Shown piece after piece: positions 21,829-28,830 of a DNA stretch of 64,000 nucleotides. The DNA is taken from NCBI RefSeq assembly GCF_014697415.1, contig NZ_JACJRT010000003.1, positions 62,001 through 126,000 of the forward strand, read 5' to 3'. A program made the translations under genes and the position numbers. This stretch comes from Cyanobium sp. FACHB-13342. Its GTDB lineage: Bacteria > Cyanobacteriota > Cyanobacteriia > PCC-6307 > Cyanobiaceae. Below the pieces are notes generated by a model that ran no database searches, was not told where the DNA came from, and saw nothing but the letters and a program-made list of their open reading frames with translations. Within the stretch, counting starts at the first letter, position 1. Each line of letters starts with the position of its first letter.

Positions 21829-22893
21829 TCAACGGAACACCTCCGCCGGGATCTGCATCGTCGCGCAGTGCAGGGAGCCGTGCTGCAGCAGCAGCGCCGT
21901 GCAGTCGAGGGGGAGGATCCTCCAGCCCGGGCAGGCCTGGCTCCAGGCCGCTGCGGCCGCCCCATCCCGTGCGGGGTCCCCGTAGGTCGGGAGCAGCAGG
22001 GTGCCGTTCAGGAAGAGGGCATTGGCGTAGGTGGCTGGAAGTGGTCTGTCGTCATCGGGGGCGCGCCGTGTCGGCCCTGCCGGCAGGGGGACCAGCCGGT
22101 AGGGGGCGCCGGTGGCTGTGCGCAACGTCTGCAGTTGGCGCTGGAGTGCCGCGTCGGCCACGTGCACCAGGGTGTCCTGGGGGCAGAAGCGCACCAGGGT
22201 GTCGATGTGGGCGTCGGTGTCATCCCCGGCCAGGGCCTCCTGTTCCAGCCACAGCACCCGGTCTGCCCCGAGCTGCTGGCGCAGCTCCCCCTCCAACGCC
22301 GAGCGGTCCAGGTCCGGGTTGCGGCTGGACGCCAGCAGACAGTTGCTGGTGGTCAGCAGCGTGCCTTGCCCGTCACTGTCGATGCTGCCGCCCTCGAGCA
22401 CCAGCGGCAGCCGCTGCAGGGGGGTGGGGCCCAGGGCTCCGGCGGCGTGCAGGGCACCGGTGGCGGCGTCATCTCCCGTGCTGTCGTACTTGCCGCCCCA
22501 GCCGTTGAAGCGGAAATCCAGCAGCAGGGGGACCTCCCGTGCGCTGCCCTGGGGTGTGGTGGGCCTCTCCAGCACGGTGATCGGGCCGTAGTCGCGCGTC
22601 CAGGTGTCGCGGGCGGGGCTGGCCAGCACCTGGAGCCGCGGCTTGGGGCCTGCAGCCAGGCAGGCCAGGGCAGGGCCTAGCTCGGCCAGGGCTCGCTCAC
22701 GGTCTTCCACCAGCAGCAGCACGGGCACGAGCTCCGTGAGCACCGTCAGGAGTTGCCGGTAGCAGGCCCGCACCTCCTCCAGATAGGGCTGCCAGTCCCC
22801 TCCGGCGCGGGGCCAGGCCAGCAGCACCGCGCCCACCGGTTCCCACTCCGCTGGTAGGCGGCGGCTGGGTGCTCCCTCAGCGGTGCCGCTCAC
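21829..22893 (-). CDS. aguA: Agmatine deiminase
   Basis: Converts agmatine to N-carbamoylputrescine. The 354-residue protein belongs to the guanidino-group modifying superfamily: WEPVGAVLLAWP near the N-terminus, RDTWTRDYGP, FNGWGGKY, LEGGSIDSDG, DTDAHIDTLVRF with the catalytic His/Asp region, and the C-terminal catalytic Cys in GSLHCATMQ. Length is normal. Start is GTG 22893 overlapping the fabI TGA as GTGA. With aguB it forms the plant-type arginine-decarboxylase route to putrescine; an arginine decarboxylase is not in the window. Confidence 0.92.
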   Translation of the reverse strand: MSGTAEGAPSRRLPAEWEPVGAVLLAWPRAGGDWQPYLEEVRACYRQLLTVLTELVPVLLLVEDRERALAELGPALACLAAGPKPRLQVLASPARDTWTRDYGPITVLERPTTPQGSAREVPLLLDFRFNGWGGKYDSTGDDAATGALHAAGALGPTPLQRLPLVLEGGSIDSDGQGTLLTTSNCLLASSRNPDLDRSALEGELRQQLGADRVLWLEQEALAGDDTDAHIDTLVRFCPQDTLVHVADAALQRQLQTLRTATGAPYRLVPLPAGPTRRAPDDDRPLPATYANALFLNGTLLLPTYGDPARDGAAAAAWSQACPGWRILPLDCTALLLQHGSLHCATMQIPAEVFR

Positions 22894-23672
22894 ATCCCGG
22901 TGATGCAGTAGCCGGCGTCCACGTAGATCACCTGACCGGTGATGCCGGAGCTCAGGGGGCTGGCCAGGAAGGCGGCGGTGCTGCCCACCTCCTCCTGGGT
23001 CACGGTGCGCTGCAGGGGGGCCTTGGCCTCCACGTTGTGGATCATGTCGAGGATGCCGCCGATGGCGCTGCTGGCCAGGGTGCGGATCGGGCCGGCGCTG
23101 ATGGCATTCACCCGCACCTGCTTCTCGGGGCCCAGCTCGGCGGCCAGGTAGCGCACCGAAGCCTCCAGGGCCGCCTTGGCCACGCCCATCACGTTGTAGT
23201 TGGGGATGGCCCGCTCGGCCCCCAGATAGCTCAGGGTGATCACGCTGCCGCCCGGGTTGAACAGGGGCTTGGCGTAGCGGCAGAGGGGTGCCAGGGAGTA
23301 GGCGCTCACCTCCAGGGCCCGGGCGAAGCCCTCGGGGCTGATGGCGGAGTAGTCGCCGATCAGTTCGTCCTTGCCGGCGAAGGCCAGGCAGTGCACCAAC
23401 ACGTCGATGGAACCCCACTGCTCCTTCACCCGGGCGAACACGGCTTCGATCTGGGCCGGGTCCTGCACGTTGAGGGGTTCGAACAGGGTGGGGGCCAGGG
23501 GGGCGGTGAGCTCGCGCACCTTGCCCTCGAAGCGGCCCTTGTCATCGGGCAAGTAGGTGACGCCGAGCTCAGCACCGGCGGCGTGCAGCTGCTGGGCGAT
23601 CCCCCAGGCGATCGACTTGTTGTTGGCGATGCCCGTCACCAGGGCTGTCTTGCCGCGCAAATCAAGGAGCAT
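22890..23672 (-). CDS. fabI: Enoyl-[acyl-carrier-protein] reductase (NADH)
   Basis: Final reduction of each fatty acid elongation cycle. The 260-residue SDR has the FabI-specific glycine motif GIANNKSIAWG (14-24), LVHCLAFAGKDEL, TLSYLGAERAIPNY and the Y-x6-K catalytic pair in YNVMGVAK, ending GYCITGM. Start at ATG 23672 matches the family; a longer frame upstream runs into the divergent gene. Only 26 bases separate it from the photolyase-like gene on the other strand. First gene of a coupled run with aguA, aguB and hisB. Confidence 0.96.
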   Translation of the reverse strand: MLLDLRGKTALVTGIANNKSIAWGIAQQLHAAGAELGVTYLPDDKGRFEGKVRELTAPLAPTLFEPLNVQDPAQIEAVFARVKEQWGSIDVLVHCLAFAGKDELIGDYSAISPEGFARALEVSAYSLAPLCRYAKPLFNPGGSVITLSYLGAERAIPNYNVMGVAKAALEASVRYLAAELGPEKQVRVNAISAGPIRTLASSAIGGILDMIHNVEAKAPLQRTVTQEEVGSTAAFLASPLSSGITGQVIYVDAGYCITGM

Positions 23673-23698
23673 GGGAGCAGGAGCCGGGAGCCGGAACG

Positions 23699-24532
23699 AT
23701 GCGATCGGGGGATTCTCTCCCACCCGGGGATCTGCCCCGCCAGTTCGCCAGCCGAACGGAGCTGCAGGCCACCCTGCGGCAGCTGTTTCCCGAGGCTGCC
23801 GGCGACCTGAGCCCGATCCGGGGGGGACGCCAAGCCGCTGCTGCTGCCCTGGCGGCCATCGATCCAGGCGCCTATGGCCGCAGCCGCAATCACCTCGATG
23901 GGGCGGTGACCCGCCTGTCGCCCTGGATCCGCCATGGCGTGCTCAGCCTGGTGGAGGTGCGTGAGGAGGTGTTCGCCTGGCTGGAGCGCAGCGGCCAGCC
24001 TCCCCAGGCCGCCGCCAAGTTGATCAATGAACTGGGCTGGCGCGACTACTGGCAGCGGCTCTGGCGCCAGCTCGGCGATGGCATCTGGCGCGATCGCGAA
24101 CCGCTCAAGACGGGCCATGCCCCCGAGCACTACGCCAACGCGCTGCCGGCGGATCTGCTCGAGGCCCGCACCGGTCTGGCCTGCATGGATGGCTTTGTGC
24201 AGGAGCTGCACACCACCGGCTGGCTGCATAACCATGCCCGGATGTGGTTGGCCAGCTACGTGGTGCACTGGCGCCGGGTGCGTTGGCAGGCCGGCGCCCG
24301 TTGGTTTCTGCAGCACCTGCTCGACGGGGATCCCGCCAGCAACAACCTCAGCTGGCAGTGGGTGGCCAGCAGCTTCAGCAGCAAGCCCTACCTGTTCAAC
24401 CGCGACAACCTGGAGCGCTTCAGCTCCGGGCGCTACTGCCGCGTCTGCAGGGCCGCCACCGATGGCACCTGCCCGTTTGACGCCAGCTACGAGCAGCTTC
24501 AGGCCGCGTTGCTGGGGGCGCCGTCATGCTGA
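23699..24532 (+). CDS. Photolyase/cryptochrome FAD-binding domain alone, with Fe-S type cysteines
   Basis: The 277-residue protein corresponds only to the C-terminal helical domain of photolyases. TRLSPWIRHGVLS (71-83) matches the flavin-binding TSxLSPYLxxG, LGWRDYWQRL (112-121) the ELxWREFY segment, TGWLHNHARM (173-182) the TGxMHNRxRM motif and LDGDPASNNLSWQW (208-221) the DGDPASNxGGWQW motif. The alpha/beta antenna domain is missing; a matching protein is encoded next. Cys162 (TGLACMDG) plus Cys247, Cys250 and Cys258 (YCRVC and TCPF) sit where Fe-S bacterial photolyases/cryptochromes place their four [4Fe-4S] ligands, judged from memory of PhrB/CryB. Repair versus signalling role is unknown. 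Confidence 0.85.
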   Translation: MRSGDSLPPGDLPRQFASRTELQATLRQLFPEAAGDLSPIRGGRQAAAAALAAIDPGAYGRSRNHLDGAVTRLSPWIRHGVLSLVEVREEVFAWLERSGQPPQAAAKLINELGWRDYWQRLWRQLGDGIWRDREPLKTGHAPEHYANALPADLLEARTGLACMDGFVQELHTTGWLHNHARMWLASYVVHWRRVRWQAGARWFLQHLLDGDPASNNLSWQWVASSFSSKPYLFNRDNLERFSSGRYCRVCRAATDGTCPFDASYEQLQAALLGAPSC

Positions 24533-24990
24533 GGCCCGTGCTCTGGATTCACGGCGAGGCCCTCGGGCCGGCCAACCCCGCCCTGGTGGCCCACCCGGGG
24601 GCCCCGGCGGTGTTCGTGTTTGATCGGGACTTGATCGTGCAGGCGGACCTGAGCCTCAAGCGCCTGGGCTTTCTTTACGAGTGCCTGCTGGAGCTGCCGG
24701 TGACCCTGCGCCACGGCGATGGGGCCGAGGAGGTGCTGACCTTTGCCCGTCGCCATGGGGCCGATGGGGTGGTGACCAGCGCGGCGGTGGATCCCCGCTT
24801 CGAGGCTTTGCGGGAACGGATCGCTGCCCAGCTGCCGGTGCAGGTGCTCGAGCCCGAGCCCTTCGTAGAGCTGCCGGAGCCGCTGGATCTGGGCCGTTTC
24901 AGTCGCTACTGGCGCCGGGCTGAGCCGGCGCTGTGGGCGCGGGCTGGAGCAGCCGCTCCTCCTGTTCCAGCACGGCGTTGGGATCGCTGA
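24526..24990 (+). CDS. Photolyase N-terminal (alpha/beta antenna) domain-like protein
   Basis: The 154-residue protein resembles the N-terminal Rossmann-like domain of photolyases: VLWIHGEALGPANPAL where photolyases have VxWFRRDLRxxDNPAL, then AVFVFD, LKRLGFLYECLLEL (cf. RxxFLxESLxxL), LRHGDGAEEVLTFARRHGADGV and the strand-helix VLEPEPFVEL. The RRDLR arginines are lost, so antenna-pigment and DNA contacts may differ. The ATG lies seven bases inside the end of the flavin-domain gene, implying translational coupling. Domain order is reversed relative to one-chain photolyases. Its last 92 bases overlap the convergent lipoprotein gene. Confidence 0.7.
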   Translation: MLRPVLWIHGEALGPANPALVAHPGAPAVFVFDRDLIVQADLSLKRLGFLYECLLELPVTLRHGDGAEEVLTFARRHGADGVVTSAAVDPRFEALRERIAAQLPVQVLEPEPFVELPEPLDLGRFSRYWRRAEPALWARAGAAAPPVPARRWDR

Positions 24991-27357: not shown

Positions 27358-28830
27358 TCAAGCCTTGATCGTGGCGTAGAGGTCCTTGAAACGGGCCTGT
27401 TGGCTTTTGTGGTTCACCAAGGGTGCCGGGTAGCCCCGGCGCTCCAGGGGCGCGATCTCGCCACTGATCAGGTCGCGGGTGCTCACATGGCTGAGCTCTG
27501 GCAGCCAGGTGCGGATGTAGGTGCCCTCGGGATCGAACTTGCTGGCCTGGGTGGCCGGATTGAAGATGCGCAGGGGCTTGGGGTCCATGCCGCTGCTGGC
27601 ACTCCATTGCCAGCCGCCGTTGTTGGCGGCCAGATCACCATCCACCAGCCGCGCCATGAAGGCGGCTTCACCCCAGCGCCAGTCGCAGATCAGGTCCTTC
27701 ACCAGGAAGGACGCCACGATCATGCGGCAGCGGTTGTGCATCCAGCCGCTGGCGTTGAGCTGGCGCATGGCCGCATCGATGATCGGCATGCCCGTGAGCC
27801 CCTCGCTCCAGGCCTCAAACCAGCCGCGGTCGTTGTCCCAGGGGAAGGCGCGCCACTGGGGCCGGTAGGGCCCGTCCGCCAGCTCCGGGAAATGGAACAG
27901 GGCCTGTTGGTAGAACTCGCGCCAGGCCAGTTCCTGCTCCCACACCTGGATGGAGTGCTCCTCCTCCTGGCTGCGGGCCAGCGGACGGGCCTGTTGGGCG
28001 GCGGCCCAGGCCTGGCGGGGGCTGAGTGTGCCGAACTTGAGGGCGGCGCTCAGGCTCGACGTGCCCGCTTCGCCCGGGATGTTGCGGCCCGGTTCGTAGC
28101 CCAGCAGGGGGATGGAGCGGCCATCGCCATTGCAGAAGGTTTGCAGCTGTTCCTGGGACGCCCGTTCGCCGGGGTGGCAGGGGCACTGCGCGGCGCCGCT
28201 AAAGCCATGCTCCAAGTCCGGGCTCGCGATCGGCAGATCTGCTAGGGCTCCGGCGAGCTGGGCGGGATCAAGATCGATCAGGGCATTTGGCGGCGGCAGG
28301 GGATCCAAGCCACCGGAGGCTGCTGTGCCGGCAGCGCTGGCTTCCTCCACCTTGCGGCGCCAGCTGCGCCAGAAGGGTCCATAGACCCGATAGGGGTCGC
28401 CGTTGCCGGTTTTGAGGGCTTCCGGGGGGATCAGCAGCTGGTCCCAATCGGCCAGCACCTTGCGCCCCTCCGCCTGCAGGGCCCGCGCCACCCGCCGGTC
28501 GCGCTCGCGCCCGAACGGCTCCACGTCCCGGTTCCACGCCACCACGTCGGCGCCAAGGGCGCAGGCCAGGCGCGGCAGGAGTTCGGCTGGATCTCCGCGG
28601 AGCACCACCAGCCTGCTGCCGGCCTGCTGCCAGCTCTGCTCCAGCTCCTTCAGGCTCTCAGACAGAAACCACAGCCGTGCCGGCGCCATGGTGGGCTCCG
28701 ACAGGATGGCCGGATCCAGCACAAACACCCCGGTGACCGCCGGGGTGGTGGCGGCCGCAGCAGCCAGGCCCCGGTTGTCCGCCAGGCGCAGGTCGCGGCG
28801 GTGCCAGAACAGCCAGCGGGGTGGAGTCAT
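27358..28830 (-). CDS. phrB: Deoxyribodipyrimidine photolyase (class I CPD type)
   Basis: Light-driven repair of cyclobutane pyrimidine dimers with FADH-. The full-length 490-residue chain has the antenna domain (LFWHRRDLRLADN at the N-terminus, RLVVLRGDPAELLP) and FAD domain (SSLSAALKFGTLSP, ELAWREFYQQ, GWMHNRCRMIVASFLVKD, DGDLAANNGGWQW, FNPATQASKFDPEG). It resembles the 8-HDF-type cyanobacterial enzyme. It shares one base with the Nudix gene stop (TGATG). It lacks the four Fe-S cysteines seen in the split photolyase at 23699, so the window encodes two distinct members of the superfamily. Confidence 0.95.
   Translation of the reverse strand: MTPPRWLFWHRRDLRLADNRGLAAAAATTPAVTGVFVLDPAILSEPTMAPARLWFLSESLKELEQSWQQAGSRLVVLRGDPAELLPRLACALGADVVAWNRDVEPFGRERDRRVARALQAEGRKVLADWDQLLIPPEALKTGNGDPYRVYGPFWRSWRRKVEEASAAGTAASGGLDPLPPPNALIDLDPAQLAGALADLPIASPDLEHGFSGAAQCPCHPGERASQEQLQTFCNGDGRSIPLLGYEPGRNIPGEAGTSSLSAALKFGTLSPRQAWAAAQQARPLARSQEEEHSIQVWEQELAWREFYQQALFHFPELADGPYRPQWRAFPWDNDRGWFEAWSEGLTGMPIIDAAMRQLNASGWMHNRCRMIVASFLVKDLICDWRWGEAAFMARLVDGDLAANNGGWQWSASSGMDPKPLRIFNPATQASKFDPEGTYIRTWLPELSHVSTRDLISGEIAPLERRGYPAPLVNHKSQQARFKDLYATIKA

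Follow-up and report, generated by a model that had tools for sequence, protein, structure and literature searches.

By combining sequence comparison, structure prediction and a survey of related genomes, we propose that the adjacent genes phr4 and phr5 of Cyanobium sp. FACHB-13342 encode a Cyanobium-type two-subunit photolyase for DNA repair, which is probably the best explanation of the observations as a whole. In this arrangement, Phr4 would serve as the catalytic subunit, carrying FAD and repairing UV dimers by light-driven electron transfer, and Phr5, a stand-alone alpha/beta domain, would bind to Phr4 and probably either position it or harvest light for it. The two would be made as separate polypeptides, presumably coupled translationally through the ATGCTGA overlap of their genes, without frameshifting. 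The cluster, the antenna pigment and the lesion are parts of this heterodimer proposal that we infer.

Gene arrangement and earlier work

The genes lie in a stretch of 64,000 nucleotides (the window), together with a separate photolyase gene in the same neighbourhood:

23699-24532, + strand: phr4, FAD-domain subunit, 277 aa (Pfam FAD_binding_7, 80.6 bits; 14-row orthologue alignment; in 86 of 388 class genomes)
24526-24990, + strand: phr5, alpha/beta (antenna-type) subunit, 154 aa (AlphaFold2 model; Foldseek, VIA and hhalign matches)
24526-24532, + strand: seven-base start/stop overlap ATGCTGA, the phr5 start lying within the phr4 end (sequence)
27358-28830, - strand: class I photolyase, separate gene (both Pfam domains; TIGR03556 as best model, below its cut-off)

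As the original prediction had it, the photolyase is spread over two genes in reversed domain order with a seven-base overlap: the product of the first open reading frame matches FAD_binding_7 above the cut-off (E 1.4e-22), and the second encodes the photolyase alpha/beta fold. The normal photolyase predicted at 27358 is likewise present as a class I gene; its best match is an 8-HDF-type model, with a score under that model's cut-off, and by domain content and model match it corresponds to the phr3 of Haney et al. By Phr5, the nearest named loci among the best 80 of 364 relatives are those of Cyanobium usitatum and Synechococcus sp. 8F6 (85-86%).

Elsewhere, the genome also encodes a DPRP-type (PF04244) photolyase (G000:C17:236086) and an extra photolyase/cryptochrome frame of 516 aa (G000:C17:461510), in which the residues at the active-site positions of the alignment are unlike those of class I. 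Upstream of the pair, the longest frame of the divergent fabI (enoyl-ACP reductase; 22890-23723, - strand) overlaps the phr4 start at 23699, so that the promoter region of both genes would be very short or overlapping; the true fabI start probably lies further inside the frame.

The locus in the window adds another example to a kind of gene pair that is already in print. Haney et al. (2022, mBio; PMC9426592, part of whose text is drawn on here) described phr4/phr5, together with a fused form, phr6, from marine Synechococcus and Cyanobium. In phr4/phr5, the domain order is reversed and there are four Fe-S cysteines, which every Phr4 and Phr6 in their data set possesses. In strain RS9916, phr3 lies several genes from phr4/phr5; disruption of phr4 lowered survival of UV-C 20-30 fold, with no measurable effect for UV-B. 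Sensitive E. coli was protected by phr4/phr5 after UV-C only and to an extent not significantly different in light and dark (PMC9426592), a light-independence that is odd for a photolyase. The UV-B/UV-C pattern was read as fitting (6-4) repair, and a possible +1 programmed frameshift was proposed, the reading frames being seven G-C base pairs apart and in constant frame in the strains studied (PMC9426592). Whether the pair had been characterised before, a point raised with the original prediction, has a divided answer: it was described and genetically tested in 2022, while in vitro work was declared by the same authors to be still needed (PMC9426592). No biochemistry of the phr4/phr5 pair was found in the literature searched.

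Co-occurrence of the two genes

We searched 388 class genomes using profiles built from 14 Phr4 and 14 Phr5 orthologues, counting Phr4 at 167 bits or more and Phr5 at 78 bits or more. Left uncounted were 13 genomes in which the Phr5 profile scored 26-32 bits against open frames of 508-586 aa, whose length marks them as ordinary photolyases, and a further 28 in which the Phr4 profile gave 102-117 bits with SPL-type or ordinary photolyases. In raw counts, uncorrected for relatedness, Phr4 occurs in 86 genomes, Phr5 in 88 and both in 86. Phr4 went undetected in two Phr5-bearing genomes, one whose contig begins inside phr5 (G362) and one in about 250 contigs (G108). Nine cyanobacterial family codes keep both genes together, and within the genus a Phr4 orthologue is found in 10 of 16 genomes, including that of the window.

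In 60 of the 86 genomes, phr4 and phr5 neighbour each other on the same strand, with fusions in two of these (G285, G384); the other 26 lack such a same-strand arrangement within 300 nt. There, they are on different contigs in ten, more than 80 kb apart on one contig in eleven, and 0.3-1.9 kb apart in five. Subunit genes are expected to co-occur even where they are not neighbours, and the 21 genomes in which the contigs differ or the distance exceeds 80 kb point to two cooperating polypeptides. Co-occurrence thus suggests that the Phr4 and Phr5 halves would be real partners.

Neither gene looks decayed: when the window is compared with five congeners, phr4 has a dN/dS of 0.15-0.24 and phr5 one of 0.19-0.33.

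Junctions, fusions and spread

Across the window and nine congeners, the junction reads ATGCTGA, GTGCTGA or GTGTTGA, GTGA, or TGATG, with the phr5 start overlapping or abutting the phr4 stop (GTG at the window's offset in seven of the nine congeners, a GTGA overlap in one, TGATG in one); such junctions have the usual look of what would be translational coupling. In the genome collection, 364 Phr5 relatives were found, of which the best 80 loci, i.e. the closest ones, were kept. These comprise 65 pairs, eight fused genes and seven loci without Phr4 in the flank; one of the seven stands at a contig start, and five of the genomes have Phr4 outside the flank (about 8 kb away in the genome of L105 and about 5 kb in that of L108). 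Among the 65 pairs of these best 80, phr5 lies in relative frame 2 in 35, frame 0 in 17 and frame 1 in 13, and the distance between the genes varies from an overlap to hundreds of bases, with three gaps above 200 nt. The spacer of seven G-C base pairs in constant frame reported by Haney et al., a trait that we regard as incidental and not as defining the system, is absent from the window, where there is a seven-base overlap, and all three frames are present among the 65 pairs. At one locus, from the metagenome-assembled genome (MAG) TMED177, the phr4 frame overlaps phr5 by about 100 nt, which is unusually long and possibly a sequencing error.

Natural fusions were found in picocyanobacteria and Deinococcus. 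In the plasmid collection, all four Phr5-matching records are from Deinococcus: plasmids of D. psychrotolerans, D. wulumuqiensis and Deinococcus sp. AJ005 carry a fused gene whose product is annotated as FAD-binding domain-containing protein, and that of Deinococcus sp. QL22 carries a split form with a four-base overlap. A narrow literature search, with most subscription journals outside its reach, returned no paper on a reversed or split Deinococcus photolyase. On viral contigs, 42 stretches matched the Phr5 pattern, none of them encoding a relative; PHROGs holds one family of unknown function for Phr4 and none for Phr5. Two MAG loci labelled Blastopirellula (L079) and Chloroflexota (L106) may be mis-binned cyanobacterial contigs and were excluded as evidence of spread outside cyanobacteria. 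In the latter MAG (L106/L175), phr4 and phr5 are about 1.6 kb apart, and a further frame upstream of phr4 scores 32.6 bits with the Phr4 profile, within the range of FeS-BCP.

In a tree of 61 FAD domains, a starred branch separates class I from Phr4/Phr6, the family f24 described below, SPL and FeS-BCP; the grouping of FeS-BCP with SPL, where long branches meet, we regard as unreliable. The Phr6 label needs three changes on this tree, so that fusion or fission would have occurred more than once.

Phr4 and its four cysteines

Four cysteines of Phr4 are candidate cluster ligands, as claimed from the first inspection of the sequence:

24182-24184, + strand: Cys162 codon, candidate ligand 1 (aligns with an FeS-BCP cysteine, 10/10)
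24437-24439, + strand: Cys247 codon, candidate ligand 2 (FeS-BCP alignment; 125-row survey)
24446-24448, + strand: Cys250 codon, candidate ligand 3 (FeS-BCP alignment; 125-row survey)
24470-24472, + strand: Cys258 codon, candidate ligand 4 (FeS-BCP alignment; 125-row survey)

They are located where claimed and align with the four cysteines in all ten FeS-BCP sequences compared. The complete set is present in 118 of 125 Phr4-type rows (124 distinct domains above 150 bits plus the protein of the window, which duplicates L004), and Phr4 probably carries a [4Fe-4S] cluster on these residues, as predicted from the alignments. Six of the 125 rows have none of the four; they belong to one cyanobacterial family (code f24; L202-L207), and in each of these loci a phr5 gene follows within 40 nt downstream of the cysteine-less phr4, implying that the Phr4/Phr5 partnership does not require the cluster. 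A Bacteroidota protein of SPL type in the same survey (L226) also is without the cysteine set. Neither the cysteine-less branch nor the Deinococcus copies were found mentioned in the part of PMC9426592 drawn on here. The proposed likeness to PhrB/CryB stands for the C-terminal cysteine motif, and does not extend to the aligned catalytic residues or the N-terminal domain family.

Active-site residues

In pairwise alignment, Glu111, Trp114, Asn178, Met182 and Asn215 of Phr4 correspond to Glu283, Trp286, Asn349, Met353 and Asn386 of 1owl, the Glu, Trp, Asn and Met positions being ones that we take to be active-site residues. Trp219 and Trp221 align with Trp390 and Trp392. The electron chain of class I photolyases includes a distal Trp, for which no Trp counterpart was seen in the Phr4 alignment. 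Asn178 and His179 are each present in 125/125 Phr4 rows, position 182 is Met in 116 and Leu in nine, and position 111 is Glu in 120, Gln in four and a gap in one. All ten FeS-BCP compared have Gln, His and Leu at positions 111, 178 and 182. A minority of Phr4 rows (e.g. L017 and L210) resemble FeS-BCP in having Gln at position 111 and Leu at position 182, and an Asn-His-x-Arg-Met stretch is common to Phr4 and all six SPL-type rows.

A His at the Asn178 position is needed for (6-4) repair. The Phr4 active site would accordingly be of CPD/SPL type, which argues against the (6-4) assignment, for which the cysteines and the UV-B/UV-C pattern had been the basis, and from this alignment CPD repair, perhaps in single-stranded DNA, is predicted as likelier than (6-4) repair. 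The UV-C phenotype and the light-independence in E. coli are left unaccounted for by this CPD/SPL-type reading.

Fold of Phr5

The product of phr5 matches Pfam DNA_photolyase under the cut-off (E 0.0037, 17.7 bits); 11 of 14 Phr5 orthologues match this domain at E <= 0.05, and one of the 14 weakly matches PF04244 (DPRP; E 0.016). As the Phr5 sequence had no significant match in the PDB (calsequestrins and a few others), and its profile retrieved a single cryptochrome (E 0.016), we turned to fold comparison. The AlphaFold2 model (pLDDT 86.9, pTM 0.76) was built on a 52-row alignment, A4, of 51 of the 73 distinct Phr5 rows plus the protein of the window. The top 20 Foldseek rows are all photolyases or cryptochromes (best E 4.2e-5); in VIA, photolyases and cryptochromes reach Z 12.9, the tightest rows having an rmsd of 2.0-2.3 over 107-110 residues, and universal-stress-type proteins score lower (Z up to 10.2). 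The expectation that the second protein resembles the photolyase alpha/beta domain is hence borne out by the model, and so is the absence of the RRDLR arginines, as hhalign gives no counterpart in Phr5 of this motif of the window's class I photolyase. Profile comparison using hhalign assigns Phr5 to class I N-domains with 96.9% (global) and 96.6% (local), and to those of FeS-BCP with 86.1% (local) and 60.7% (global).

We also considered the C-terminal region of SPL proteins as a homologue of Phr5; profile comparison using five of the six SPL-type rows lends this no support (probability 0.6%).

Structure prediction for L049, a naturally fused homologue, gives a single body (pLDDT 91.4, pTM 0.91) from an alignment, A3, of seven of the eight fused, 46 of the 65 Phr4 and 51 of the 73 distinct Phr5 rows plus the two proteins of the window; structure comparison of this fused model matched mostly its FAD half.

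Discussion

Set beside the two-subunit repair photolyase, the prediction of Haney et al., a (6-4) photolyase with both the cluster and the activity of FeS-BCP, is in our view rather unlikely. It would explain the alignment of the four cysteines with all ten FeS-BCP and the phenotype in UV-C, not UV-B, of RS9916 (PMC9426592), and it draws on the whole-domain match to PhrB (4dja; E 4.5e-8), on the VIA scores of several FeS-BCP structures with the FAD half (Z 15.3-17.6), level with or slightly above those of class I (up to 15.9), and on the few Phr4 with Gln in place of Glu111 and Leu in place of Met182. However, Asn instead of the FeS-BCP His occupies position 178 in every Phr4 row, neither protein of the window has a DPRP match in Pfam, and the cysteines are missing from six pairs. 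In addition, the sequence search puts class I (E 1.1e-25) far above PhrB, and Foldseek also ranks class I first for the FAD half. A light sensor or cryptochrome in place of a repair enzyme appears improbable: CryB, an FeS-BCP relative, acts in regulation (PMC9178010, in the part drawn on here, which also calls for further work on cluster function), and the protection of E. coli did not depend on light, but loss of phr4 in RS9916 cuts UV-C survival 20-30 fold (PMC9426592) and the aligned repair residues are conserved over the 125 rows.

Production of a single fused protein by programmed +1 frameshifting at the junction, also proposed by Haney et al., we regard as very improbable, even though natural fusions exist and the junction was reported to be constant in the strains of that study (PMC9426592). 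Fusion in the window would need a -1 (or +2) shift, not +1; phr5 of WH7803 (L083) is in frame 0; and 21 of 86 genomes have the genes on separate contigs or over 80 kb from each other. The three frames and variable spacing observed among the 65 pairs of the best 80 of 364 loci are difficult to square with a conserved +1 frameshift, although recoding may occur in single strains. Decay of a normal photolyase into a remnant, to which the short Phr5 without RRDLR and the absence of a Phr4 orthologue from 6 of 16 same-genus genomes could be attributed, is barely credible given the dN/dS of 0.15-0.33 for both genes and their joint retention in nine cyanobacterial family codes. Of the roles considered in the original prediction, i.e. 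repair enzyme, light sensor or relic module, repair fits best on account of the UV-C survival conferred by the marine orthologue (PMC9426592), and purifying selection and co-occurrence make a relic unlikely; overall, that interpretation is partly supported.

Returning to the two-subunit repair photolyase, we tentatively raise the possibility, in which our confidence is limited, that it represents a photolyase class of its own, whose antenna-type subunit is obligate and provided in trans and whose catalytic chain, of CPD/SPL type, carries a dispensable FeS-BCP-type cluster, lost or never gained in one family, the genes being split, unlinked or fused in cyanobacteria and fused or split on Deinococcus plasmids. 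If so, this photolyase, naturally in two pieces, would illustrate how two-domain photolyases could have been assembled. Co-occurrence, frame variation, the active-site residues, the cysteine-less f24 pairs and the Deinococcus plasmid copies are added here beyond the part of PMC9426592 drawn on. These comparative data address two open points of that work, namely two chains versus a frameshift product, and CPD-type residues versus (6-4) repair. In a photolyase with a separate antenna-type subunit and with cluster ligands that can be absent, the roles of antenna and cluster would become testable independently.

Comparison with known systems

The class I CPD photolyases (1owl, 1tez, 1dnp) provide the best sequence match of the Phr4 FAD domain and share with the pair the Glu, Trp, Asn and Met active-site residues of Phr4 and the alpha/beta fold of Phr5. 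They differ in being single chains with the alpha/beta domain first, in having Arg at the His179 position and RRDLR, and in lacking the cysteine cluster in the 16 class I rows compared. FeS-BCP or prokaryotic (6-4) photolyases (PhrB, CryB, SePhrB) resemble Phr4 in the four cysteines, within a C-terminal motif of the KPY...C..C...CPF type, but have His and Leu (10/10) where Phr4 has Asn178 and Met182, and are single chains with a DPRP (PF04244) N-domain.

With the short photolyase-like proteins, SPL/NewPHL, Phr4 has in common an FAD domain without an N-terminal alpha/beta domain and the Asn-His-x-Arg-Met stretch (6/6 SPL-type rows), and Phr7 is nearest in the tree of Haney et al. (PMC9426592). 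In contrast, the SPL-type chains compared carry a C-terminal region of their own of 150-175 residues, whereas Phr4 ends at residue 277, 19 residues past the last cluster cysteine, with no C-terminal Z-domain in the chain; no SPL-type row has all four cysteines, three having one at an aligned column. From the published Phr4/Phr5 (PMC9426592), the pair in the window differs in the seven-base overlap of its reading frames and in a frame other than the reported +1. It resembles Phr4/Phr5/Phr6 in the order of an FAD domain followed by an alpha/beta domain, encoded in two adjacent frames or one fused frame, and Phr4/Phr5 in the four Fe-S cysteines, the phr3-type gene nearby and the picocyanobacterial hosts (PMC9426592).
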